Shown here: positions 4,353 through 33,678 of the stretch, piece by piece
Position numbering within the stretch: position 1 is the stretch's first letter
Layout of the letters: each line of letters begins with the position of its first letter
Assembly (NCBI RefSeq): GCF_030053115.1
Contig: NZ_CP125619.1
Location: 5,033,501 to 5,097,500 of the forward strand
Reading direction: 5' to 3'
Source of the DNA: Pseudomonas svalbardensis
GTDB taxonomy: Bacteria > Pseudomonadota > Gammaproteobacteria > Pseudomonadales > Pseudomonadaceae
Length of the DNA: 64,000 nt
The notes under the pieces: generated by a model
The model's database searches: none
Seen by the model: only the letters and a program-made list of their open reading frames with translations
What the model was told of the DNA's origin: nothing
Made by a program: the position numbers and the translations under genes

Positions 4353-6404
4353 TTGAAGCTGGAACTCAAGAACAGCTTGTCGGTGAAGTTGCTTCGGGTA
4401 GTGCTCCTGTCGGCATTGATCGTCGGCGTGGTCTTGAGCTGCGCGCAGATCGTTTTCGATGCCTATAAAACACGCCAGGCCGTGGCCAGCGATGCCCAAC
4501 GCATCCTCGACATGTTCCGCGACCCCTCGACCCAGGCCGTCTACAGCCTGGACCGGGAAATGGGTATGCAGGTTATCGAAGGCCTGTTTCAGGACGACGC
4601 TGTGCGCAAGGCCTCCATTGGCCATCCCAACGAAGCCATGCTCGCGCAAAAGTCTCGCGAGCTGCAGCATTCCGACAGTCGCTGGCTGACCGACCTGATC
4701 CTCGGCAAGGAACGCACCTTCACCACCGAGCTGGTGGGTCGCGGCCCTTACAGCGAGTATTACGGCGACTTGAGCATCACCCTCGACACCGCCACCTACG
4801 GCCAGGGTTTCATCGTCAGTTCGGTGATCATCTTCATCTCCGGCGTGTTGCGTGCGATGGCCATGGGGCTGGTGCTGTACCTGGTCTATCACTGGCTGCT
4901 GACCAAGCCGCTGTCGCGGATCATCGAACACCTCACGGAAATCAATCCGGATCGCCCCAGCGAACACAAAATCCCGCTGCTCAAGGGGCATGAAAAGAAC
5001 GAACTGGGAATCTGGATCAACACCGCCAACCAGTTGCTCGAGTCCATCGAGCGCAACACCCATTTGCGCCACGAAGCGGAAAACAGCCTGCTACGCATGG
5101 CCCAGTACGACTTCCTCACCGGCCTGCCGAACCGCCAGCAATTGCAGCAGCAACTGGACAAAATCCTGGTAGACGCCGGCAGGTTGCAACGTCGGGTCGC
5201 GGTATTGGTCGTCGGCCTGGACGACTTCAAGGGCATCAACGAACAATTCAGCTACCAGACCGGCGACCAACTGCTGCTGGCCCTGGCCGATCGCCTGCGC
5301 GCTCACAGCGGACGCCTTGGTGCCCTCGCCCGCCTCGGCGGCGACCAGTTCGCCCTGGTTCAGGCCGACATCGAACAACCCTACGAAGCGGCCGAACTGG
5401 CCCAAAGCATTCTCGATGACCTGGAAGCGGCATTTGCCCTCGATCATCAAGAGATTCGTCTGCGCGCGACCATCGGCATCACCCTGTTCCCCGAAGACGG
5501 TGACAGCACCGAGAAACTGCTGCAAAAAGCCGAGCAGACCATGACCCTGGCCAAGACTCGCTCGCGCAACCGTTATCAGTTCTATATCGCCAGTGTCGAC
5601 ACCGAAATGCGCCGCCGTCGCGAGCTGGAAAAAGACCTGCGCGACGCCTTGGCCCGTAACCAGTTCTACCTCGTCTACCAGCCGCAGATCAGCTATCGCG
5701 ATCACCGGGTGGTGGGTGTCGAGGCACTGATTCGCTGGCAGCATCCCGAGCACGGGCTGGTTCCGCCAGACTTGTTCATCCCCCTGGCCGAGCAGAACGG
5801 CACCATCATCGCCATCGGCGAATGGGTGCTGGATCAGGCGTGCAAACAATTGCGCGACTGGCATGACCAGGGTTTCGTCGACCTGCGCATGGCGGTGAAT
5901 CTGTCCACGGTGCAGCTGCACCACGCCGAGTTGCCACGGGTGGTCAACAACCTGCTGCAGATGTACCGCCTGCCGCCCCGCAGCCTGGAGCTGGAAGTCA
6001 CCGAAACCGGCCTGATGGAAGACATCAGCACGGCTGCCCAGCACCTGCTGAGCCTACGTCGCTCCGGCGCGCTGATCGCGATCGACGACTTCGGCACCGG
6101 ATACTCATCATTGAGCTATCTGAAAAGCCTGCCGCTGGACAAGATCAAGATCGACAAGAGCTTCGTTCAGGACCTGCTCGATGACGACGACGATGCGACC
6201 ATCGTTCGGGCCATCATCCAGTTGGGCAAGAGCCTGGGCATGCAGGTGATTGCCGAAGGCGTGGAAACCGCCGAGCAAGAGGCCTACATCATCTCTGAAG
6301 GCTGTCACGAAGGTCAGGGCTATCTCTACAGCAAGCCGCTGCCGGCGCGGGAATTGAGCGCGTATCTGAAACAGGCTCAGCGCAGTAACGCGGCTATTTT
6401 GTAG
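4353..6404 (+). CDS. bifA: Cyclic-di-GMP phosphodiesterase BifA (GGDQF-EAL)
   Basis: This 683-residue inner-membrane protein has a first membrane segment at about 11-33, a periplasmic stretch, a second segment at about 153-182, a linker, a degenerate GGDEF domain (RLGGDQF at 327-333) and an EAL domain with EAL intact at 457-459, DDFGTGYSSL and EGVET. The GGDQF change and sodB neighbour are hallmarks of BifA, which degrades c-di-GMP and controls biofilm and swarming. The start codon is TTG at 4353 with AAGGA nine bases upstream; no in-frame ATG is available before the first membrane segment. A three-codon ATG reading frame overlaps the start. Confidence 0.93.
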   Translation: MKLELKNSLSVKLLRVVLLSALIVGVVLSCAQIVFDAYKTRQAVASDAQRILDMFRDPSTQAVYSLDREMGMQVIEGLFQDDAVRKASIGHPNEAMLAQKSRELQHSDSRWLTDLILGKERTFTTELVGRGPYSEYYGDLSITLDTATYGQGFIVSSVIIFISGVLRAMAMGLVLYLVYHWLLTKPLSRIIEHLTEINPDRPSEHKIPLLKGHEKNELGIWINTANQLLESIERNTHLRHEAENSLLRMAQYDFLTGLPNRQQLQQQLDKILVDAGRLQRRVAVLVVGLDDFKGINEQFSYQTGDQLLLALADRLRAHSGRLGALARLGGDQFALVQADIEQPYEAAELAQSILDDLEAAFALDHQEIRLRATIGITLFPEDGDSTEKLLQKAEQTMTLAKTRSRNRYQFYIASVDTEMRRRRELEKDLRDALARNQFYLVYQPQISYRDHRVVGVEALIRWQHPEHGLVPPDLFIPLAEQNGTIIAIGEWVLDQACKQLRDWHDQGFVDLRMAVNLSTVQLHHAELPRVVNNLLQMYRLPPRSLELEVTETGLMEDISTAAQHLLSLRRSGALIAIDDFGTGYSSLSYLKSLPLDKIKIDKSFVQDLLDDDDDATIVRAIIQLGKSLGMQVIAEGVETAEQEAYIISEGCHEGQGYLYSKPLPARELSAYLKQAQRSNAAIL

Positions 6405-6405
6405 A

Positions 6406-6478
6406 AGATCAAAGGATCGCAGCCTCGTTTCACTCTGTAGCAGCTGTCGAGTGAAACGAGGCTGCGATCTTTTGATCT
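6406..6478. repeat. Long extragenic palindrome after bifA
   Basis: Arms of 30 bases at 6406-6435 and 6449-6478 are complementary except for one position, with a 13-base loop. No T-run follows on the + strand beyond TTTT inside the arm. It probably also ends bifA transcription and may be a mobile palindrome. Confidence 0.8.
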
Positions 6479-6528
6479 ACCTCACGTGTCTCCGTGAATA
6501 AGAAATATTTACAAGCACAACCCTTTAC

Positions 6529-6555
6529 ACATAATGCGAAAGATTTGCATTATGT
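6529..6555. promoter_or_regulatory. 27-bp palindromic operator candidate upstream of icmP
   Basis: ACATAATGC at 6529-6537 is inverted exactly at 6547-6555 (GCATTATGT), with 11 of 13 pairs matching around base 6542. The ATAATG/CATTAT half sites resemble Fur-type half sites, but their spacing is 11 bases rather than 5. A metal regulator fits the imelysin genes downstream; the identity is inference. Confidence 0.5.
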
Positions 6556-6612
6556 CGCAGTTTTGCGCGCTTGCTGCGCCATTCCACCCCCTCTCGAAGC
6601 AGGATGTTCGCC

Positions 6613-7959
6613 ATGATTCGTATGCCTCTGGCTACCGCCAGTCTGTTGGCCATCGCTATTTCCCTCGCCGGTTGTGGCGAAGGCAAAGACAAAGCTGTCG
6701 CTGCGCAAGCACCGAATCCGGCCGCCAGCACCACGGCCCCGGCTGCTGCGCCTGCCGCTGTTGGTAAAATCGACGAAGCCGCCGCCAAAGCCGTTGTCGC
6801 GCATTACGCCGACATCGTCTTCGCCGTTTACAGCGATGCCGAATCCACCGCGAAGACCCTGCAAACCGCCGTCGACGCCTTCCTCGCCAAGCCGAACGCC
6901 GACACCCTGAAAGCTGCCAAGGCTGCCTGGATCGCTGCCCGCGTTCCTTACCTGCAGAGCGAAGTGTTCCGCTTCGGCAACACCATCATCGACGATTGGG
7001 AAGGTCAGGTGAACGCCTGGCCACTGGACGAAGGCCTGATCGACTACGTCGACAAATCCTACGAGCACGCACTGGGTAACCCGGGCGCCACGGCCAACAT
7101 CATCGCCAACACCCAGGTTCAGGTCGGCGAAGACAAGATCGACGTGAAAGACATCACCCCGGCAAAACTCGCCAGCCTGAACGAGCTGGGTGGTTCCGAG
7201 GCCAACGTTGCCACCGGCTACCACGCCATCGAATTCCTGCTCTGGGGCCAGGACCTGAACGGCACCGGCCCTGGCGCTGGCAAACGCCCAGCTTCCGACT
7301 ACCTGGAAGGCAAAGGTGCAACCGGCGGTCATAACGATCGTCGTCGCGCTTACCTGAAGTCCGTGACCCAACTGCTGGTCAGCGACCTGGAAGAAATGGT
7401 CGGTAACTGGAAGCCGAACGTGGCCGACAACTACCGCGCCACCCTCGAAGCCGAGCCAGCTGAATCCGGCCTGCGCAAAATGCTGTTCGGCATGGGCAGC
7501 CTGTCCCTGGGCGAACTGGCGGGCGAGCGCATGAAGGTTTCCCTGGAAGCCAACTCGCCGGAAGACGAACACGACTGCTTCAGCGACAACACCCACAATT
7601 CGCAGTTCTACGATGCCAAAGGCGTTCGTAACGTGTACCTGGGTGAATACACCCGCGTCGACGGCACCAAAATGACCGGCGCCAGCCTGTCATCCCTGGT
7701 GGCCAAGGCTGACCCGGCTGCCGACACCGCGCTGAAAGCCGACCTGGCTGCGACCGAAGCGAAGATGCAGGTTATCGTCGATCACGCCAACAAGGGTGAG
7801 CACTACGACCAGCTGATCGCTGCCGGCAACACTGCTGGCAACCAGATCGTGCGCGACGCTATCGCTTCCCTGGTCAAGCAGACCGGTTCGATCGAAGCAG
7901 CCGCTGGCAAACTGGGCATCAGCGACCTGAACCCGGACAACGCTGATCACGAGTTCTGA
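6613..7959 (+). CDS. icmP: Imelysin-family lipoprotein IcmP
   Basis: The 448-residue protein starts with a lipoprotein signal (lipobox LAGC, Cys at about residue 21), then an Ala/Pro linker and an imelysin (peptidase M75) domain. The GxHxxE motif is present as GYHAIE at about residues 202-207, followed by FLLWGQD. In PAO1 IcmP was described as an insulin-cleaving outer-membrane metalloprotein; related imelysins act in periplasmic iron handling. I use the ATG at 6613 because AGGA lies nine bases upstream and the lipobox then has normal spacing. It is the first gene of a four-gene module, but a terminator separates it from the next gene. Confidence 0.9.
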   Translation: MIRMPLATASLLAIAISLAGCGEGKDKAVAAQAPNPAASTTAPAAAPAAVGKIDEAAAKAVVAHYADIVFAVYSDAESTAKTLQTAVDAFLAKPNADTLKAAKAAWIAARVPYLQSEVFRFGNTIIDDWEGQVNAWPLDEGLIDYVDKSYEHALGNPGATANIIANTQVQVGEDKIDVKDITPAKLASLNELGGSEANVATGYHAIEFLLWGQDLNGTGPGAGKRPASDYLEGKGATGGHNDRRRAYLKSVTQLLVSDLEEMVGNWKPNVADNYRATLEAEPAESGLRKMLFGMGSLSLGELAGERMKVSLEANSPEDEHDCFSDNTHNSQFYDAKGVRNVYLGEYTRVDGTKMTGASLSSLVAKADPAADTALKADLAATEAKMQVIVDHANKGEHYDQLIAAGNTAGNQIVRDAIASLVKQTGSIEAAAGKLGISDLNPDNADHEF

Positions 7960-7974
7960 TCAACGCTGTCTGAA

Positions 7975-8003
7975 TAAAAAGGCGACCTTCGGGTCGCCTT
8001 TTT
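7975..8003 (+). terminator. Rho-independent terminator after icmP
   Basis: AAAAAGGCGACC and GGTCGCCTTTTT form a hairpin with a short TTCG-containing loop, followed by T residues, 15 bases after the icmP stop. It may only partly stop transcription into the following gene. Confidence 0.9.
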
Positions 8004-8118
8004 GCTGCCGGTCGCCGATCAGTTGCCCCACATCAACCAAACGATAATTCCTCTTATTCAATCCCCCCTGCCCTGTTAGACTTTGCGCCCTTGTTTTGCT
8101 CGTCTTGCAGGATGTCTG

Positions 8119-9546
8119 ATGCCCTCGCTGCCTCTTCGCTTGTCCGCACTGTTTCTGGCCCTGGGCCTGAGTGCCTGCGATGACGCCCCGCGCTTTACCC
8201 AAGCCGAACCCGGTGAAGCCCGGTCCGGTGGCAGCGCAACCGTGCGCAAGACCGATCAGAACGCATTTTCCCTGCCGTCCGCCAACCTGCCGCCGTCACG
8301 GCGCGTGGACTTCAGTGTCGGCAACAGCTTTTTCCGTAATCCCTGGGTGATCGCCCCGTCGACCACCACCGCCCGGGATGGCCTCGGCCCGCTGTTCAAC
8401 ACCAACGCGTGCCAGAACTGCCACATCAAGGACGGACGCGGTCATCCGCCCACGCCTGATGCGCAGAACGCCGTGTCGATGCTGGTACGTCTGTCGATTC
8501 CCGATACGCCAGCGTACGCCAAGGTCATCGAGCAGCTCGGTGTCGTCCCGGAGCCGGTCTACGGCGGCCAGTTCCAGGACATGTCCGTACCGGGTGTCGT
8601 GCCGGAAGGCAAAGTGCGCGTCGATTACACACCCGTTCCGATCCGCTTCAAGGACGGCACCGAAGTCGAGTTGCGCAAGCCGACGTTGCAAATCACCCAG
8701 CTCGGCTATGGCCCGATGCACCCTGACACGCGCTTCTCAGCCAGGGTTGCACCGCCAATGATTGGCCTGGGCCTGCTCGAAGCGATTCCCGACGAGGCGA
8801 TCCTGGCCAATGCCGAGGCTCAGGAAAAAGACAAAAACGGTATCGCCGGGCGTCCGAACCGGGTCTGGGATGACGCGCAGCAAAAATCCGTTCTCGGGCG
8901 ATTTGGCTGGAAGGCCGGCCAACCAAACCTCAATCAGCAAAATGTTCATGCGTTTTCCGGGGACATGGGCCTGACCACCAGTCTGAGACCCGTTGATGAC
9001 TGCACCGCCGCGCAAACCGCTTGCAAGCAAGCGCCCAACGGTAATGGCCCGGATGGCGAGCCGGAAGTCAGCGATAACATCCTGCGTCTGGTGCTGTTCT
9101 ACAGCCGTAACCTCGCCGTACCGGCCCGCCGCGATGTCAGCGCCCCCGAGGTGCTGGCCGGCAAGAATCTGTTTTTCCAGGCCGGATGCCAGTCCTGCCA
9201 CACCCCGAAATACACCACCGCCGCCAACGCCGCAGAACCTGAATTGGCCAATCAAGTGATTCGCCCTTACAGCGATCTGCTGCTGCATGACATGGGCGAC
9301 GGTCTGGCCGACAACCGTACCGAATTCCAGGCCAGCGGCCGCGACTGGCGCACCCCGCCGTTGTGGGGCATCGGCCTGACGCAGGCGGTCAGTGGGCACA
9401 CCCAGTTTTTGCACGATGGCCGCGCCCGCAATCTGCTTGAAGCCGTGCTCTGGCATGGCGGCGAAGCCACAGCGGCGCAGCAACAGGTTTTGTCTTTCAA
9501 TGCCGAGCAGCGCGCTGCGTTGCTGGCGTTCTTGAATTCCCTTTAA
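8119..9546 (+). CDS. Di-heme oxidoreductase (DHOR/DUF1111) lipoprotein
   Basis: The 475-residue protein begins with a lipoprotein signal (lipobox LSAC) and has two c-type heme sites, CQNCH at residues 98-102 and CQSCH at about 357-361. Conserved stretches such as NPWVIAPSTTTARDGLGPLF and HDMGDGLADNR are typical of the di-heme oxidoreductase family once called thiol oxidoreductases, distantly related to MauG/cytochrome c peroxidases. The start at 8119 gives a proper signal peptide; the in-frame ATG at 8083 does not. It sits between two imelysin genes and 26 bases before the second, suggesting a periplasmic redox role in metal uptake. Confidence 0.88.
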   Translation: MPSLPLRLSALFLALGLSACDDAPRFTQAEPGEARSGGSATVRKTDQNAFSLPSANLPPSRRVDFSVGNSFFRNPWVIAPSTTTARDGLGPLFNTNACQNCHIKDGRGHPPTPDAQNAVSMLVRLSIPDTPAYAKVIEQLGVVPEPVYGGQFQDMSVPGVVPEGKVRVDYTPVPIRFKDGTEVELRKPTLQITQLGYGPMHPDTRFSARVAPPMIGLGLLEAIPDEAILANAEAQEKDKNGIAGRPNRVWDDAQQKSVLGRFGWKAGQPNLNQQNVHAFSGDMGLTTSLRPVDDCTAAQTACKQAPNGNGPDGEPEVSDNILRLVLFYSRNLAVPARRDVSAPEVLAGKNLFFQAGCQSCHTPKYTTAANAAEPELANQVIRPYSDLLLHDMGDGLADNRTEFQASGRDWRTPPLWGIGLTQAVSGHTQFLHDGRARNLLEAVLWHGGEATAAQQQVLSFNAEQRAALLAFLNSL

Positions 9547-9572
9547 TACGTATTCCATAGCGGGAGCCCGAC

Positions 9573-10637
9573 ATGTTCCGTCCCAAATTGTTGTTCACCA
9601 GCCTTGCCGCACTCGCCCTGGGCGCCTGTTCGCCTCAGGATCCGCAGGCCGTCACGTCGGCGGCGATCGCCAAGTCGGTAATCCTGCCGACCTACACGCG
9701 CTGGGTTGAAGCCGACCGCCAACTGGCCGTCAGCGCCCTCGCCTACTGCGAAGGCAAGGAAAACCTCGACACCGCCCGCGCCGACTTCCTGCACGCGCAG
9801 AAAGCCTGGGCCGAGTTGCAGCCACTGCTGATCGGGCCGCTGGCCGAGGGCAATCGCGCCTGGCAGGTGCAGTTCTGGCCGGACAAGAAAAACCTCGTCG
9901 GCCGTCAAGTCGAGCAACTGGTCACCGCACAGCCGCAGATCGATGCCGCTGCATTGGCCAAGTCCAGCGTTGTGGTTCAAGGCCTCTCCGCCTACGAATA
10001 CATCCTGTTCGACAGCAAGCCTGATGTGGCCAACGCTGAACAGAAAACCAAGTACTGCCCGCTGCTGATCGCGATTGGCGAGCGTCAGAAACAACTGGCC
10101 GAAGAAATTCTGAAAAGCTGGAACAACACCGACGGCATGCTCGCGCAGATGAGCAAATTCCCGAACCAACGCTACGCCGATTCCCACGAAGCCATCGCCG
10201 ATCTATTGCGCGTGCAAGTCACCGCCCTCGACAGCCTGAAGAAAAAACTCGGCACGCCGATGGGCCGTCAAACGAAGGGGGTGCCGCAACCGTTCCAGGC
10301 CGATGCATGGCGCAGCCAGTCGTCCCTGACCGGCCTCGAAGCCAGCCTCGCCGCCGCCAAAACGGTATGGGAAGGCGTCGACAACAAAGGCCTGCGCGGC
10401 CTGTTGCCGAACGAGCAGAAACCCTTGGCCGACAAGATCGACGCCGCTTACGCCGCGTCCCTGAAACTGTTCGCCAGCAACCAGCGTTCGCTGACTGAAA
10501 TGCTCGGCGATGACGCCGGTCGCCAACAGCTAAACGATATCTACGACAGCCTGAACGTCGTCCACCGCCTGCACGAAGGCGAACTGGCCAAGGCGCTGGG
10601 CATCCAACTGGGCTTCAACGCCAACGACGGTGACTGA
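9573..10637 (+). CDS. Imelysin-family lipoprotein (second copy)
   Basis: The 354-residue protein has a lipoprotein signal (lipobox LGAC, Cys at residue 19) and an imelysin-like helical domain. Signature stretches are AWAELQPLLIGPLAEGNRAW and SAYEYILFD; the canonical GxHxxE is altered to LSAYEYIL, so the metal site may be different from that of IcmP. It follows the di-heme gene by 26 bases and overlaps the next gene by one base (TGATG), so it is in an operon. A role in binding or passing iron in the periplasm is inferred from the family. Confidence 0.88.
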   Translation: MFRPKLLFTSLAALALGACSPQDPQAVTSAAIAKSVILPTYTRWVEADRQLAVSALAYCEGKENLDTARADFLHAQKAWAELQPLLIGPLAEGNRAWQVQFWPDKKNLVGRQVEQLVTAQPQIDAAALAKSSVVVQGLSAYEYILFDSKPDVANAEQKTKYCPLLIAIGERQKQLAEEILKSWNNTDGMLAQMSKFPNQRYADSHEAIADLLRVQVTALDSLKKKLGTPMGRQTKGVPQPFQADAWRSQSSLTGLEASLAAAKTVWEGVDNKGLRGLLPNEQKPLADKIDAAYAASLKLFASNQRSLTEMLGDDAGRQQLNDIYDSLNVVHRLHEGELAKALGIQLGFNANDGD

Positions 10638-27076: not shown

Positions 27077-29128
27077 ATGTCCGAGCCACGCAAGATCCTC
27101 GTCACCAGCGCCCTGCCCTATGCCAATGGTTCGATCCATCTTGGCCACATGCTGGAATATATCCAGACCGATATGTGGGTGCGCTTCCAGAAGCACCGCG
27201 GCAATCAATGCATTTATGTCTGCGCCGACGACGCCCACGGTTCGGCCATCATGCTGCGCGCGGAAAAGGAAGGCATCACCCCGGAACAACTGATCGCCAA
27301 CGTCCAGGCTGAACACAGCGCCGACTTTGCCGAGTTCCTGGTGGACTTCGACAACTTCCACTCCACTCACGCCGAAGAAAACCGTGAGCTGTCGAGCCAG
27401 ATCTACCTGAAGCTGCGCGACGCCGGGCACATCGCCCAGCGTTCGATCACTCAGTACTTCGACCCGGAAAAGAAAATGTTCCTGGCCGACCGCTTCATCA
27501 AGGGCACCTGCCCGAAATGCGGCACCGAAGACCAGTACGGCGACAACTGCGAAAAATGCGGTGCGACCTACGCGCCGACGGACCTGAAGGATCCGAAGTC
27601 GGCGATCTCTGGCGCTACTCCGGTGCTCAAGGATTCCCAGCACTTCTTCTTCAAGCTGCCGGACTTCCAGGAAATGCTGCAAGCCTGGACCCGCAGCGGC
27701 ACCCTGCAAGAGGCTGTGGCGAACAAGATTGCCGAATGGCTGGACGCCGGTCTGCAACAGTGGGACATCTCCCGCGATGCGCCGTACTTCGGTTTTGAAA
27801 TCCCGGACGAGCCAGGCAAATACTTCTATGTATGGCTGGACGCGCCGATCGGCTACATGGCCAGCTTCAAGAACCTCTGCGACCGCACGCCTACACTTGA
27901 TTTCGACGCGTTCTGGGGCAAGGACTCCACCGCTGAGCTGTACCATTTCATCGGCAAGGACATCGTCAACTTCCACGCCCTGTTCTGGCCAGCCATGCTC
28001 GAAGGCGCCGGTTTCCGTAAACCGACCGGCATCAACGTACACGGCTACCTGACCGTCAACGGTCAGAAAATGTCCAAATCCCGCGGCACCTTCATCAAGG
28101 CCCGGACCTATCTGGACCATCTGTCGCCGGAATACCTGCGCTACTACTACGCGGCGAAGCTGAGCCGTGGCGTCGACGACCTCGACCTGAACCTCGAAGA
28201 CTTCGTGCAGAAGGTCAACTCTGACCTGGTCGGCAAAGTCGTCAACATCGCCAGCCGTTGCGCCGGTTTCATCCACAAAGGCAACGCCGGTGTACTGGTG
28301 GCGGGCAATGCCGCGCCGGAACTGACCGAAGCGTTCCTGGCCGCAGCGCCAAGCATCGCCGAAGCCTACGAGGCTCGCGACTTCGCCCGTGCCATGCGCG
28401 AAATCATGGGCCTGGCCGACCGTGCCAATGCCTGGATTGCCGACAAGGCGCCGTGGTCGCTGAACAAACAGGAAGGCAAGCAGGACGAAGTCCAGGCCAT
28501 CTGCGCCTTGGGCGTGAACCTGTTCCGCCAGCTGGTGATTTTCCTCAAGCCGGTGTTGCCGTTGCTGGCCGCCGACGCCGAGGCGTTCCTCAACGTCGCG
28601 CCGCTGACCTGGAACGACCACGCTACCTTGCTCAGCAACCATCAGCTGAACGAGTTCAAACCGTTGATGACCCGTATCGACCCGGTAAAAGTGCAAGCCA
28701 TGAGCGACGCCTCGAAAGAAGACCTGACCGCCAGCGCTACTGACACCGGCGAGGCTGCACCTGCCGGCAATGGCGAACTGGCCAAGGATCCGCTGTCGCC
28801 GGAAATCGAGTTCGATGCCTTTGCCGCTGTCGACCTGCGCGTCGCCCTGATCCTCAAGGCCGAACACGTGGAAGGTGCCGACAAACTGCTGCGCCTGACC
28901 CTCGACATCGGTGACGAGCAACGCAACGTGTTCTCCGGGATCAAGAGTGCTTATCCGGATCCGTCCAAGCTCAATGGTCGTTTGACCATGATGATCGCCA
29001 ACCTCAAGCCACGGAAAATGAAGTTCGGCATCTCCGAAGGCATGGTGATGGCGGCCGGCCCTGGCGGTGAAGAAATCTACCTGCTCAGCCCTGACAGCGG
29101 CGCCAAGCCTGGTCAGCGCATCAAGTAA
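27077..29128 (+). CDS. metG: Methionyl-tRNA synthetase
   Basis: The 683-residue class I synthetase has the HIGH signature in [13 protein letters not shown] (residues 12-24), a zinc knuckle with CPKC and CEKC near residues 145-161, KMSKSRGTF near residue 331, an anticodon-binding helical domain and a C-terminal EMAP/Trbp111-type tRNA-binding domain ([20 protein letters not shown]). It charges tRNA-Met and initiator tRNA. The ATG at 27077 follows GTAGCCGAGCCCC. Confidence 0.98.
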
Positions 29129-29270: not shown

Positions 29271-29840
29271 ATGACCGAAATTGTTCTTACGCTTATCAGC
29301 ACTGCCCTGATCAACAACCTCGTGTTGCACTGGCCGTTGGGCGTCGATCCACTGCTGGGCAACGAGCATCGGCAAGTCCACGCGCTGGGCCTTGCGACGG
29401 CTTGCTTGATGTTAATCGTCGGCACGGTGGGCTACTCGGCCTACCGTTGGTTGCTGGTCCCGCTGGAGCTGACGTCGCTGCGCCTTTTCGTGTTCCTGCC
29501 GTTGAGCGTTCTGCTGATTGGCCCGCTGCTGAAAGTGCTTTCCCGGTCACTTCCAAAGCTTGCGTTCGATGGCCTCTGGCCCCTGCTGCTGGGCAATGCT
29601 GGCGTACTCGGCCTGACGCTGCTCAACGCTCAGGACGACAAAGGCTTCTTCCACGCCATGGCCCTGAGCCTGGGTGCCGGCCTGGGCTTCTGGCTGGTAC
29701 TGAGCCTGTTCAGCGACCTGCGCCAACGCACAATCGAAAATGATATCCCCCTGCCCTTTCGCGGCCTGCCCATCGACCTGATCGGCGCCGGGTTGATTGC
29801 AGTGGCCTTTCTCGGATTCAGCGGACTGATCAAAACATGA
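29271..29840 (+). CDS. rnfA: RnfA-like membrane subunit lacking the cluster cysteines
   Basis: The 189-residue protein has six hydrophobic segments and aligns along its length with RnfA/RsxA (INNLVL near the start, [20 protein letters not shown] and [10 protein letters not shown] at the end). In canonical RnfA the first half carries LGLCP and the second TNCAVLG; here these read LGVDP (Asp26) and GNAGVLG (Ala110). Both cysteines of the RnfA share of the intramembrane [2Fe-2S] centre are therefore missing. It starts the operon rnfA-B-D-G-E-nth and overlaps rnfB by ATGA. Confidence 0.88.
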
Positions 29841-30847
29841 GTCTGATTCAACGCATCGACGCCCTCTTGCCGCAGACCCAATGCGGCAAGTGCGGCCACC
29901 CCGGATGCAAACCGTACGCCGAAGGCATTGCCAGCGGCGAACCGATCAACAAGTGCCCGCCGGGCGGCAGCGAAACCATCGCCGCCCTGGCCGAGCTGTT
30001 GAAAGTGCCGGTGCTGGAACTGGACGTCAGTCGCGGTTCGGCCCCGGCGCAGATCGCCTATATTCGTGAAGCGGAGTGTATTGGTTGCACCAAGTGCATC
30101 CAGGCCTGCCCGGTGGATGCCATTGTCGGCGCGGCGAAATTGATGCACACGGTGATCGTCGATGAATGCACCGGTTGCGACCTGTGCGTAGCGCCCTGCC
30201 CGGTGGATTGCATCGAGATGCGGCCGTTGCCGCTGGCCACAGTGCTGCCGATTGTCGGTGGCCTGGCGTTCAGCTTTGAGGAGCAACGCGCCCGGACGGT
30301 CAAGCGCAATCACGCACGGCGCCGATTCGAACAGCGCAATGCTCGCCTGCGTCGCGAAGAAGAACAGAAAATCGCCGAACGTCAGGCCCGAGCCCAACGC
30401 GCCATCCAGCACAGTGAGGTGGCGACGCTCAATCCGGTTCAGGCCGCTCTTGAGCGAGTCCGCGCACAGAAGGCAGCCAATGCGGATACGGCGCTGAAAA
30501 AGGCCAAGATCGATCTGGCGATGAGTCGGGCGCAACTGAACAAGTCACTCAAGGCGTTCGGGCATCCGCCGACCTTCGAACAGCAGTCGCAACTGATCGT
30601 CCTGCAACAGCAGTTCGAGGCAGCCGAACAGGCGTTAGCGAAACTGGAAAGTACTGCACCGCCAGCCGCGGCACCCGTCGTTCCGGCGAAAAATGCGCAG
30701 CTGAATCGGGCAAAGATCCAGCTGGCCATGCGCCGCGCCGAACTCAAGAAAGGCCAAGCCAGCGAAGCGCCAGCTGAGCAGATCGAAGCCCTGGAACGCG
30801 CGGTGAGTGAAGCCGAGCGTCAGGTGGATGCCTATGCAGCCCCTTGA
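29837..30847 (+). CDS. rnfB: RnfB-like Fe-S protein with RnfC-like C-terminal tail
   Basis: The 336-residue protein begins directly with the [4Fe-4S] domain (Cys16, 19, 24, 40) and lacks the usual N-terminal membrane anchor. Two ferredoxin motifs follow (Cys81/84/87/91 and Cys111/114/117/121). From residue 150 on it is a charged, Ala-rich coiled region with [17 protein letters not shown] and two similar units, [12 protein letters not shown] and [12 protein letters not shown], that recall the C-terminal tail of RnfC. Canonical RnfB is about 190 residues. It overlaps rnfA (ATGA) and rnfD (14 bases). No rnfC gene lies between B and D. Confidence 0.88.
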
Positions 30848-31826
30848 ATCGGTCGACGAGCGCCTTCAGCAGACCATGAAGCTGGTATTGCTGGCCACCG
30901 TGCCGGGAATGCTGGTGTTTTTCTGGCTGTATGGCTGGGGCGTGTTGATCAACCTGATTCTGACCGGTATTACCGCTCTGACCGTTGAAGCGACCGTATT
31001 GCGCTTGCGCAAGCTTGCGGTCAAGCCGGCCCTGAGCGACGGCAGTGCGCTGGTCAGCGCGACGCTGTTGGCTCTGGCCTTGCCGCCTTATTGCCCGTGG
31101 TGGCTGACGGTCTGTGCCGCGGCGTTCTCGATGGTGTTCGGCAAACACCTGTATGGCGGCGTTGGCAAGAACCCGTTCAACCCGGCAATGCTGGGCTTCG
31201 CCCTGGTGCTGGTGACCTTTCCCCAACAGATGACCCACTGGCCGTCATCCCATGGGCTGGACCTGATCGGCGGCTTGCAGCAGGTGTTCGGGTTCAGCCT
31301 CGTGCAGACGCCAGACGCCTGGGTCCAGGCCACGGCGCTGGACAGCCTGCGGATCAACAAAAGCCTGACCATGGACGAACTGTTTGCCGCTAACCCGGCG
31401 TTCGGTCATTTCGGCGGCCGAGGCATGGAATGGGTCAACCTGGCCTTTCTGGCAGGTGGCGCGTTTCTGCTGCAACGACGGGTGTTCAGCTGGCATGCGC
31501 CGGTCGGCATGCTCGCCAGCCTGTTCATCATCAGCCTGCTGTGCTGGAACGGCTCGGGCTCCGACTCCCATGGTTCGCCGCTGTTTCATCTGCTCACTGG
31601 CGCGAGCATGCTGGGTGCATTCTTCATCGTCACGGAACCGGTGTCCGGTGCAAAAAGCCCCGGCGCGCGACTGCTGTTCGGCGCGGGCGTCGGGCTGCTG
31701 ACGTACCTGATTCGTACCTGGGGTGGTTATCCGGACGGCGTAGCCTTTGCCGTGCTGTTGATGAACCTCTGTGTGCCGGCGCTGGAGCGGTTTGCCACCT
31801 CCAGACTGGAACGGGGTGCGCCATGA
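30834..31826 (+). CDS. rnfD: Rnf complex subunit D
   Basis: The 330-residue membrane protein has about nine to ten hydrophobic segments. It keeps the flavin-attachment region as VQATALDSL (Thr167 in the place of the covalent FMN threonine), [20 protein letters not shown] and the C-terminal [18 protein letters not shown]. These features fit a functional RnfD/RsxD. The ATG at 30834 is preferred over 30807 because GTCAGGTGG precedes it and [12 protein letters not shown] fits relatives; it overlaps the end of rnfB. It overlaps rnfG by ATGA. Confidence 0.9.
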
Positions 31827-32434
31827 GCCGAGCGTCGAGCGTTGTGACCCTGGTGTTGCTGGCAGGGCTGGGGATTGGCGCGACTTACCTCGTGCAGCAC
31901 ACCAGCGCGCCGCGCATTGCGGCCGAACAGCGCCTGATCGACAGTCGTAACCTGCTGGACTTGCTCCCTGCTGGAGGCTACGACAATCAGCCGCTGGAAC
32001 AGACACTCGCCCTCGAAAATACTGAGCTGGCCAACAGCACGCTGCTAGGTGGCTACCTGGCGACCAAGACTGGCCAACCCAGCGCCGTGTTGCTGCGCAG
32101 CCAGACCCTGGGCTACGAGGGTTCCATCGAATTGCTGATCGCCATCGGCGCAAACGGCAAGGTGTTAGGCGTGAAAACGCTCAAGCAATCGGAAACTCCG
32201 GGCCTGGGCGGCCGACTCGCCGACTGGCCCAATGCCTGGCTTCAGGGATTTTCCGGAAAGTCCCAAACCGAACCTGCCGACAATGGCTGGGCCTTGAAAA
32301 AGGATCAGGGGCAATTCGATCAAATGGCGGGGGCAACCATTACTTCGAGAGCGGTCATCAACGCCATCCATGACGCGTTGCGCTATTTCGACGAACATCA
32401 GCAACAGTTGATCGGGAGCAGCGCTCATGAATAA
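31823..32434 (+). CDS. rnfG: Rnf complex subunit G (FMN-binding)
   Basis: The 203-residue protein has one N-terminal membrane segment (VVTLVLLAGLGIGATYLV) and a periplasmic FMN-binding domain. The attachment motif is QMAGATITSRAV with Thr172 as the likely covalent FMN site; GVKTLKQSETPGLGGRL is the conserved preceding loop. It looks intact compared with RsxG. The start codon overlaps the rnfD stop, and the stop overlaps the rnfE start region by eight bases. Confidence 0.9.
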   Translation: MSRASSVVTLVLLAGLGIGATYLVQHTSAPRIAAEQRLIDSRNLLDLLPAGGYDNQPLEQTLALENTELANSTLLGGYLATKTGQPSAVLLRSQTLGYEGSIELLIAIGANGKVLGVKTLKQSETPGLGGRLADWPNAWLQGFSGKSQTEPADNGWALKKDQGQFDQMAGATITSRAVINAIHDALRYFDEHQQQLIGSSAHE

Positions 32435-33014
32435 GTCATCGACGCTGCAGAATTCGCTGATGCTTGCACCGCTGATCGGTGCCACGGATTCATTAGTGAC
32501 CGCTGTGGGCTTGTGGCTGATGTTCATCGTGGTGATCAGTGCTTTTGGGGTGAGCATGGGCGCCTTGCGATCCCGACTTATCCCTGCGACACATCTGCTT
32601 GCCAGCGTCCTGCTGGCGGCCACGCTGACCAGCTGCGCGGAACTCGCCGCGCAAGTCTGGTCGCTGCAATGGCACCAACATGTAGGGTTCTATGCAGGAT
32701 TGATTGCCTTGCAATGCGTTGTGCTGGAACACACCGGTTTTTTCCAGAGCGCCTGGCGTGATCGCCTGCGCCTGTGTGGCCTGTTCGGCGCGTTGATGGC
32801 AGGCCTTGGCTTGCTGCGCGAACTCATCGGCAGCGGGACACTCGGCAGCCATCTGCCATGGCTGGCTGGCACTGCGCAAGCGGACTGGCAAGGCTGGGTG
32901 CTGACTGCCGACGGTGGCTTGCGCCTGGCCACCCTGGCCCCTGGTGGATTCATTCTGCTGGGCCTGCTGATCGCCACACGTCAGGCCTGGACCCGCTCGA
33001 CGCCCTCTCACTGA
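32427..33014 (+). CDS. rnfE: RnfE-like membrane subunit with one cluster cysteine lost
   Basis: The 195-residue protein has about six hydrophobic segments and RnfE features such as GLLRELIGSGTLGSH and LAPGGFILLGLLIA. Canonical RnfE has LGLCPLLAVT near the N-terminus and TNC in the middle. Here the first reads LMLAPLIGAT (Ala14) and the second LIALQCVVLE (Cys97 kept). It overlaps rnfG by eight bases and ends 25 bases before nth. Confidence 0.85.
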   Translation: MNKSSTLQNSLMLAPLIGATDSLVTAVGLWLMFIVVISAFGVSMGALRSRLIPATHLLASVLLAATLTSCAELAAQVWSLQWHQHVGFYAGLIALQCVVLEHTGFFQSAWRDRLRLCGLFGALMAGLGLLRELIGSGTLGSHLPWLAGTAQADWQGWVLTADGGLRLATLAPGGFILLGLLIATRQAWTRSTPSH

Positions 33015-33039: not shown

Positions 33040-33678
33040 ATGAATGCCGCAAAACGTCTGGAAATTTTTCGCCGATTTCACGAAGACAACCCGGAACCGA
33101 AGACCGAACTGGCCTACTCCTCGCCGTTCGAATTGCTGATATCCGTGATTCTCTCGGCGCAGTCGACCGATGTCGGCGTCAACAAGGCCACCGCCAAACT
33201 CTATCCGGTGGCCAATACACCGGCGGCGATTTATGCCTTGGGTGTCGAGGGACTGTCGGAATACATCAAGACCATCGGCCTGTTCAACAGCAAAGCGAAA
33301 AACGTGATCGAGACCTGTCGCTTACTGATGGAACGTCATGGAGGCGAAGTGCCGCAAACCCGTGAAGAGCTGGAAGCGTTACCCGGCGTCGGCCGCAAGA
33401 CTGCCAACGTGGTGCTCAATACCGCATTCCGTCAGCTGACCATGGCCGTGGACACGCATATCTTCCGGGTCAGCAACCGTACCGGCATTGCTCCAGGCAA
33501 AAATGTGGTCGAGGTTGAGCAAAAACTGATGAAGTTCGTGCCGAAGGAATATCTGCTGGATTCCCATCACTGGCTGATCCTCCACGGACGCTACGTTTGC
33601 CTGGCCCGTAAGCCTCGCTGCGGCAGTTGCCGGATCGAAGACTTGTGCGAATACAAGCAAAAGACTTCGGACGATTGA
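33040..33678 (+). CDS. nth: Endonuclease III
   Basis: The 212-residue DNA glycosylase/AP lyase removes oxidised pyrimidines. The helix-hairpin-helix LPGVGRKTANVVLN holds catalytic Lys120; catalytic Asp138 is in AVDTHIFRV. The C-terminal [4Fe-4S] loop has Cys187, 194, 197 and 203 with the standard 6-2-5 spacing. It is the last gene of the rnf operon, as in many gamma-proteobacteria. Confidence 0.97.
   Translation: MNAAKRLEIFRRFHEDNPEPKTELAYSSPFELLISVILSAQSTDVGVNKATAKLYPVANTPAAIYALGVEGLSEYIKTIGLFNSKAKNVIETCRLLMERHGGEVPQTREELEALPGVGRKTANVVLNTAFRQLTMAVDTHIFRVSNRTGIAPGKNVVEVEQKLMKFVPKEYLLDSHHWLILHGRYVCLARKPRCGSCRIEDLCEYKQKTSDD

Follow-up and report, generated by a model that had tools for sequence, protein, structure and literature searches.

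What becomes of an Rnf electron transport complex when RnfC is gone? The question is raised by a locus of Pseudomonas svalbardensis within a stretch of 64,000 nucleotides (contig NZ_CP125619.1, positions 5,033,501 to 5,097,500; here called the window, to which all coordinates refer). There, an operon between metG and nth encodes RnfA, RnfB, RnfD, RnfG, and RnfE, and the RnfB protein has a long C-terminal extension. Judging from the genes, an RnfB that bears the tail of RnfC, and that seems to have no membrane anchor, often persists in Pseudomonas where the other subunits have been lost. Our literature search, which did not cover most subscription papers, found no description of an RnfC-less Rnf in Pseudomonas or of a fusion between RnfB and the RnfC tail.

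An rnf operon without rnfC

The genes of the locus are all in tandem, in the order metG-rnfA-rnfB-rnfD-rnfG-rnfE-nth; the rnf genes overlap, and positions 29271 to 33014 leave no space for rnfC. The five rnf genes and nth were named by family profile scans. An earlier reading of this DNA from the sequence alone (the sequence-only reading) had proposed the same order from rnfA to nth, with overlapping genes and no room for rnfC, and both the reading frames and the family scans agree with it; its long RnfB, of 336 residues, was also confirmed. The features are as follows, with the flanking genes last.

29271..29840, + strand: rnfA, 189 amino acids (aa), strongly diverged (113 bits with TIGR01943; cut-off, 229)
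29346..29348, + strand: RnfA Asp26, at the position of the first [2Fe-2S] cysteine (Asp in 54 of 60 RnfC-less loci)
29598..29600, + strand: RnfA Ala110, at the position of the second [2Fe-2S] cysteine, from the aligned sets
29837..30847, + strand: rnfB with the fused RnfC tail, 336 aa, without a membrane helix
29837..30232, + strand: core of RnfB, with the FeS domain and 4Fe-4S dicluster, 12 cysteines retained
30284..30844, + strand: tail of RnfB, RnfC derived, with a charged long helix (model residues 147 to 194) and two helical hairpins (200 to 273 and 284 to 334)
30828..31826, + strand: rnfD, flavinylation threonine present, start uncertain (GTG at 30807, ATG at 30828 or 30834)
31332..31334, + strand: flavin-attachment threonine of RnfD, motif WVQATALD
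31823..32434, + strand: rnfG
32336..32338, + strand: RnfG Thr172, flavin-attachment threonine, motif GATITS
32427..33014, + strand: rnfE, strongly diverged (63 bits with TIGR01948; cut-off, 213)
32466..32468, + strand: RnfE Ala14, at the position of the first [2Fe-2S] cysteine
32715..32717, + strand: RnfE Cys97, the sole remaining cluster cysteine
27077..29128, + strand: metG, flanking the rnf locus upstream
33040..33678, + strand: nth (endonuclease III), flanking it downstream

The window RnfB scored well over the TIGR01944 cut-off (215.4 versus 68.7 bits), with its iron-sulfur (Fe-S) core present, and RnfD and RnfG also scored above their NCBIfam cut-offs (364 versus 207 bits and 152 versus 102 bits, respectively). 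A domain scan of RnfD gave PF03116 only, with no fused NqrF-type domain for nicotinamide adenine dinucleotide (NAD). By RnfB, the closest named relatives of this genome include Pseudomonas frederiksbergensis, P. lini, and P. umsongensis, which suggests a strain of the P. mandelii group.

The genome is a single contig of 6.36 Mb. A search of all of it with TIGR01945 gave no RnfC: the best place reached 55.4 bits, where the cut-off is 245.95, and the protein there is NuoF. The sole match to PF13375 (27.6 bits with frame neighbors, over the family cut-off) comes from pyruvate carboxylase subunit B, in its biotin domain, and both candidates were rejected as RnfC. An rnfC gene elsewhere in the genome, which the sequence-only reading had named as a refutation, was thus not found by either search.

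The extension of RnfB matches the tail of RnfC

The sequence-only reading had pointed to a charged stretch and two AKI.LAM units in RnfB that resemble the tail of RnfC. Both exist in the window protein, the charged stretch from residue ~150 and the AK-I-LAM units from residues ~218 and ~287, and both match RnfC tails far beyond chance. The profile used was built from 34 canonical RnfC proteins, of which only the part that follows the second 4Fe-4S motif was taken; these represent 34 of 45 candidate loci, 11 minus-strand loci being left out, and include one genome, G163, twice (L034 and L098). It was scored against all the RnfB tails from loci without RnfC (n = 105). Aligned with RnfC tails, residues ~150 to 336 of the window RnfB scored 104.6 bits, and the RnfB-RnfC alignment is colinear across the junction from residue ~150, in keeping with the proposed fusion.

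The best score in a control set of 7538 reading frames was 10.7 bits; these frames, of ≥80 aa, were from the same loci, and many are no real genes. All but one of the RnfB tails (104/105) scored higher, the exception being the Billgrantia tail (L209; 3.9 bits). The maximum was 8.8 bits for shuffled tails (n = 1260) and −1.9 bits for reversed tails (n = 105). Chance or composition as the source of the match is rejected by the shuffles, the reversals, and the control frames. Among 25 fused proteins the invariant tail positions were R161, R163, R170, A180, R185, K221, and L234, so that the charged stretch is included. A motif from the nonrepetitive C terminus of RnfC was present in 14 of the 105 fused tails, as counted with a rough pattern. 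The first tail segment of canonical RnfC, charged stretch included, aligns with the C-terminal end of the solved RnfC chain of Azotobacter vinelandii (8ahx_C). According to a review (PMC12174285), RnfC of A. vinelandii ends in a long helix, which contacts RnfB and RnfH and whose function is not understood. Judged by these alignments, residues ~150 to 336 of RnfB are the tail of RnfC.

Features lost together with RnfC

We compared canonical and RnfC-less loci in aligned sets. The 120 loci were in three states, rnfABCDGE (15 loci), rnfABDGE (60 loci), and rnfB alone (45 loci), but these counts give no estimate of prevalence because the loci were either chosen for study or the best RnfB matches, and at least four genomes were included twice. 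The 12-cysteine pattern of RnfB was present in all 105 fused proteins. The N-terminal hydrophobic membrane helix of RnfB was found in 15 of 15 canonical proteins but in none of the 105 fused ones. A single in-frame deletion of the RnfC core, as the sequence-only reading had it, is therefore insufficient to give the present rnfB, because the N-terminal helix was lost as well.

The losses extend to RnfA and RnfE. Four cysteines in the inner helices of these proteins bind a [2Fe-2S] cluster by way of which the electron of RnfB crosses the membrane to RnfG, as described in PMC12174285; we read four aligned RnfA/RnfE columns as these ligand cysteines. The first RnfA cysteine was present in 15/15 canonical versus 0/60 RnfC-less proteins, 54 of which have Asp instead, and the second was likewise present in 15/15 versus 0/60. 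For the first RnfE cysteine the numbers were 14/14 versus 1/60 (L082). The window RnfA and RnfE hold one of the four. From these alignments, the RnfC-less RnfA and RnfE are predicted to be unable to hold the intramembrane cluster in the known way. The mechanism proposed in the sequence-only reading, an otherwise normal complex fed by a donor other than NADH, fails because the cluster ligands are gone too. The flavin-attachment threonine was kept in 60/60 RnfG and 60/60 RnfD proteins of the RnfC-less loci.

The loss of the RnfB helix and of the RnfA/RnfE cysteines had been missed by the sequence-only reading.

Selection on the remaining genes

Ratios of nonsynonymous to synonymous substitution rates (dN/dS) were calculated by gene for 13 hand-chosen pairs, 9 RnfC-less (the window in 3 of them) and 4 canonical. 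In the RnfC-less pairs dN/dS was 0.02 to 0.12 for the RnfB core, 0.06 to 0.22 for the tail, 0.09 to 0.28 for RnfD, 0.12 to 0.28 for RnfG, 0.13 to 0.32 for RnfA, and 0.12 to 0.56 for RnfE; for MetG in the same pairs it was 0.01 to 0.11. In the canonical pairs the values were 0.01 to 0.15 for the RnfB core, 0.04 to 0.33 for RnfD, 0.12 to 0.36 for RnfG, 0.01 to 0.34 for RnfA, 0.05 to 0.31 for RnfE, and 0.11 to 0.26 for RnfC. Because these ranges are similar, purifying selection on the RnfC-less genes is about as strong as on the canonical genes.

The fused RnfB was also compared between strains with and without the other subunits, using the first 120 rnfABDGE pairs and all 87 rnfB-only pairs with synonymous divergence (dS) of 0.15 to 1.0. 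Median dN/dS values were 0.057 for the core and 0.144 for the tail when RnfB was alone, versus 0.083 and 0.136 when RnfA, RnfD, RnfG, and RnfE were present. It is mainly because RnfB, its tail included, is as constrained alone as in company that we call it autonomous below.

Accessory genes follow different parts of the complex

We surveyed 198 Pseudomonadaceae genomes. RnfC was over the cut-off in 143, but 9 of these have only a divergent RnfC-like protein (expect values of 1e-111 to 1e-115; 377 to 383 bits in the three that were looked at, G011, G135, and G136), which leaves 134 with a strong RnfC, canonical or RNF1-like. RseC was over its cut-off in 134 genomes: 131 of the 134 with a strong RnfC (the others being G027, G051, and G081) and 3 of the 64 without one, all 3 incomplete (G104, 83%; G118, 76%; G190, 93%). 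Neither a strong RnfC nor an RseC over the cut-off was found in 61 genomes. In the window genome the best RseC score was 21.6 bits, below the cut-off of 24.4, and the matching protein is TauE. The only genome read that has both an RnfC-less locus and RseC is G007, which also has a second complete Rnf.

ApbE was present in all 171 genomes with an RnfD/NqrB-type match, including that of the window, versus 2 of the 27 without (G010 and G167). FMN_bind proteins were found in 18 of 18 tested RnfC-less genomes with RnfD, RnfG being the sole one in 11, versus 0 of 26 genomes without RnfD. Thus, RseC accompanies the complete complex and ApbE accompanies the flavin subunits. When the pairs RnfC/RseC and RnfA-D-G-E/ApbE were tested as independent events, each gave 2 pairs on well-supported branches (6 and 5, respectively, on all branches), with none discordant, which is too few for significance.

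That RseC is a factor for every Rnf [2Fe-2S] cluster is a suggestion weakened by G027 and G051 (70% complete), in which RseC gave no match although both RnfA cysteines are present in what we label an RNF1-like complex. In PMC9124969, acetogens with RNF but without rseC are reported and a regulator role is argued for RseC.

In the window genome (L258), apbE is at a distant site from the rnf genes; its neighbors are a GAPDH-type gene (PRK08289) on one side and a transhydrogenase gene (PRK05249) on the other. Genome G167, which is 100% complete and of the same genus, is without a close RnfB, RnfD, or FMN_bind protein and has ApbE and SoxR.

Distribution and origin

The sequence-only reading had asked how far this operon form extends across Pseudomonas. 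It was found in other strains, which makes the layout a recurrent state of the locus and not an isolated event. RnfC-less operons are present in P. protegens, P. chlororaphis, P. cichorii, P. alkylphenolica, and P. otitidis. The rnfB-only loci, mostly between metG and nth, are found in P. lurida, P. antarctica, P. congelans, P. oryzihabitans, P. luteola, and others. In G007 (L263) the RnfC-less locus is at metG-nth, and the second, complete Rnf operon is accompanied by RseC.

Trees were made for MetG (98 of 114 rows, after removal of near copies) and RnfD (54 of 74 rows). The MetG tree required 7 changes in RnfC presence, at least 4 of them forced by starred branches, and 10 changes in the presence of rnfA, rnfD, rnfG, and rnfE among RnfC-less loci. 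These four genes appear to be dispensable and may have been lost in several lineages that keep the fused RnfB. The RnfD tree required 2 changes in RnfC presence and is compatible with a single clade (P = 0.42 by the approximately unbiased test). The two trees thus give different numbers of events, and a history of one or two fusions with later exchange of the locus cannot be distinguished from one of several fusions. Genome G124 (L082) may be a second case because its RnfE keeps the first cysteine and its RnfD groups with canonical RnfD.

What the remaining genes may do

In the canonical complex electrons pass from RnfB to the [2Fe-2S] cluster of RnfA/RnfE, to the flavin mononucleotide (FMN) of RnfG, to the FMN and riboflavin of RnfD, to RnfC, and to NAD, according to PMC12174285. 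In the RnfC-less form the NAD end, the RnfB tether, and the first membrane step are all gone. We think that the locus is probably a dismantled and re-used Rnf/Rsx system, in which the fused RnfB is autonomous and carries electrons as a soluble protein and RnfA, RnfD, RnfG, and RnfE, where kept, form a flavin-only module without the Rnf cycle. The RnfC tail helix touches RnfB in the parent complex, and therefore the fusion would join two former contact partners in one protein. The fused RnfB would then be a ferredoxin-like carrier with a helical arm, the RnfB-binding helix of RnfC being permanently attached, and it may serve a cytosolic acceptor; nth is known only as its neighbor. More tentatively, the other four subunits may provide a one-way flavin electron path through RnfD and RnfG, without NADH, the Fe-S path, or the Rnf pumping cycle. 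Of the sequence-only reading, then, the observation, the fusion, and the RnfC tail on RnfB stand, but the mechanism does not.

Several points weigh against re-use of the locus in this way. The second RnfE cysteine was present in 14/14 canonical and still in 57/60 RnfC-less proteins, a retention that simple loss of the cluster leaves unexplained. The conserved cytosolic ends of canonical RnfD are, by eye, absent from RnfC-less RnfD, and because of this there may be no docking of the fused RnfB on that subunit. Its presumed solubility is based on the missing helix only, and both the putative carrier role and the putative flavin path are read from genes. AlphaFold gave the fused RnfB a 48-residue helix at 147 to 194 and further helices at 200 to 240, 247 to 273, 284 to 308, and 313 to 334, but at low confidence (mean predicted local distance difference test score, 64.5; predicted template modeling score, 0.26), so that the model supports helices in the tail only. 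The window genome could keep ApbE for NosR because NosR is its second FMN_bind protein, and ApbE is also present in G010 and G167, which have neither RnfD nor an FMN_bind protein. Given how far RnfA and RnfE have diverged from the canonical proteins, the four subunits could be in slow decay.

Decay could also be the whole explanation: loss of RnfC would have killed the complex, rnfA, rnfD, rnfG, and rnfE would be passengers on the way to deletion, and the fused RnfB would survive only because it is upstream of nth and is maybe cotranscribed with it. The frequency of rnfB-only loci in our set (45/120), an rnfA remnant still present at L070, the divergence of RnfA and RnfE, and the fact that 103 of the 105 RnfC-less loci have nth as the next gene, with the same orientation, all fit. 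However, dN/dS was well under 1 for all five genes in the nine RnfC-less pairs, and the fused RnfB core was about as constrained as MetG; the flavin threonines are invariant, Asp predominates at RnfA position 26, and ApbE is retained even where RnfG is the sole FMN_bind protein. We therefore regard plain decay as unlikely. The prevalence of that Asp and of the second RnfE cysteine would also suit a working pump without RnfC, in which the fused RnfB feeds RnfA/RnfE via another cofactor or the remaining ligands and RnfA Asp26 is a proton or sodium site. The review PMC12174285 reports a proposal that ions cross RnfA-RnfE, the fold of which is symporter-like. Such a pump would have no RnfC end for its electrons, no RnfB helix, one of four cluster ligands in the window, and no RseC over the cut-off, all of which make it quite improbable.

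The sequence-only reading had also suggested reduction of SoxR, and the fused RnfB might maintain SoxR in its reduced form, a task of the Rsx complex in E. coli. SoxR was indeed over the cut-off in the window genome (223.3 versus 116.9 bits) and, counting all, in 10 of 18 RnfC-less genomes with RnfD. However, it was below the cut-off in 4 of 6 canonical genomes and in 19 of 25 genomes with RnfB but without RnfD (13 of the 25 were read for the fused tail, the others being known by their RnfB match only). Because SoxR is missing in these 19, its reduction cannot be the general role of the fused RnfB, and SoxR was rejected as a general client. RseC, which according to PMC11729352 belongs to the E. 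coli SoxR-reducing system, was over the cut-off in 0 of 44 noncanonical genomes tested. We regard this role as very unlikely.

A bolder version of re-use, possible but doubtful, is that RnfA, RnfD, RnfG, and RnfE form a one-way flavin wire from the soluble RnfB-RnfC-tail carrier to the periplasm, with the RnfA Asp standing where a cluster ligand used to be. In this proposal RseC would have been lost because it serves Fe-S assembly in the Rsx-type complex, a function that NqrM seems to have in NQR, and ApbE would follow the flavin subunits. If so, RseC would gain a function and the two halves of the Rnf cycle would be separated.

Related systems and significance

Among the closest known systems is the RsxABCDGE/RnfABCDGE of Gammaproteobacteria in its canonical Pseudomonadaceae form, which shares with the window the metG-nth locus and gene order, the RnfB core, and the flavin sites of RnfD and RnfG, and the RnfC of which bears the same tail. 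The window form differs in lacking the RnfC core, the RnfB helix, three of the four RnfA/RnfE cysteines, the cytosolic ends of RnfD, and RseC, and in having the tail on RnfB. In A. vinelandii RNF1 (8ahx) the likeness is the RnfC C-terminal helix, the end of which aligns with the start of the Pseudomonas RnfC tail; its subunits, in contrast, are separate, and the complex is complete, with the [2Fe-2S] cluster. The partial NQR/RNF-like systems described in PMC8238504 also keep one transmembrane electron path, flavinylated and thought to be one-way, and so are a precedent for a flavin half-cycle. However, in those systems an NqrF-type NAD domain is joined to the RnfD/NqrB domain, whereas the window keeps RnfA, RnfG, and RnfE.

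Two sets of features go together: RnfC, the RnfB helix, the RnfA/RnfE cluster ligands, and RseC are one, and the flavin sites and ApbE are another. The pattern of losses across Pseudomonas is therefore a natural route to learning what each piece of Rnf does. The roles of RseC, presented as part of the SoxR reducer in PMC11729352 and as a regulator in PMC9124969, and of the RnfC tail (PMC12174285) become directly testable by comparing strains. For Pseudomonas genes labeled electron transport complex subunit RsxB, membership in a pump should not be assumed.

Outside Pseudomonadaceae, a long RnfB is represented by the RsxB family PRK06991/NF005415, with nth within ~1.5 kb in 15 of 21 loci (L105 to L122, L128, L130, and L131). 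The window RnfB scored 246.5 bits with this family, below its cut-off of 281. RnfC was over the cut-off in 0 of 23 such genomes tested. Their RnfB tails matched the Pseudomonas RnfC-tail profile weakly (median, 5.3 bits; 21 tails), and because of this a common origin with them is not shown.

Genome G011 has another partial Rnf in a separate mini-cluster (L255, positions 5700 to 10386), which consists of apbE, an RnfC-like gene (382 bits, 484 aa), an RnfD-like gene (211 bits), and a 397-aa frame without a Pfam match. In many of the long RnfB proteins from outside Pseudomonadaceae, the tail finishes with KKAIIQAAIERARLKK-like units.

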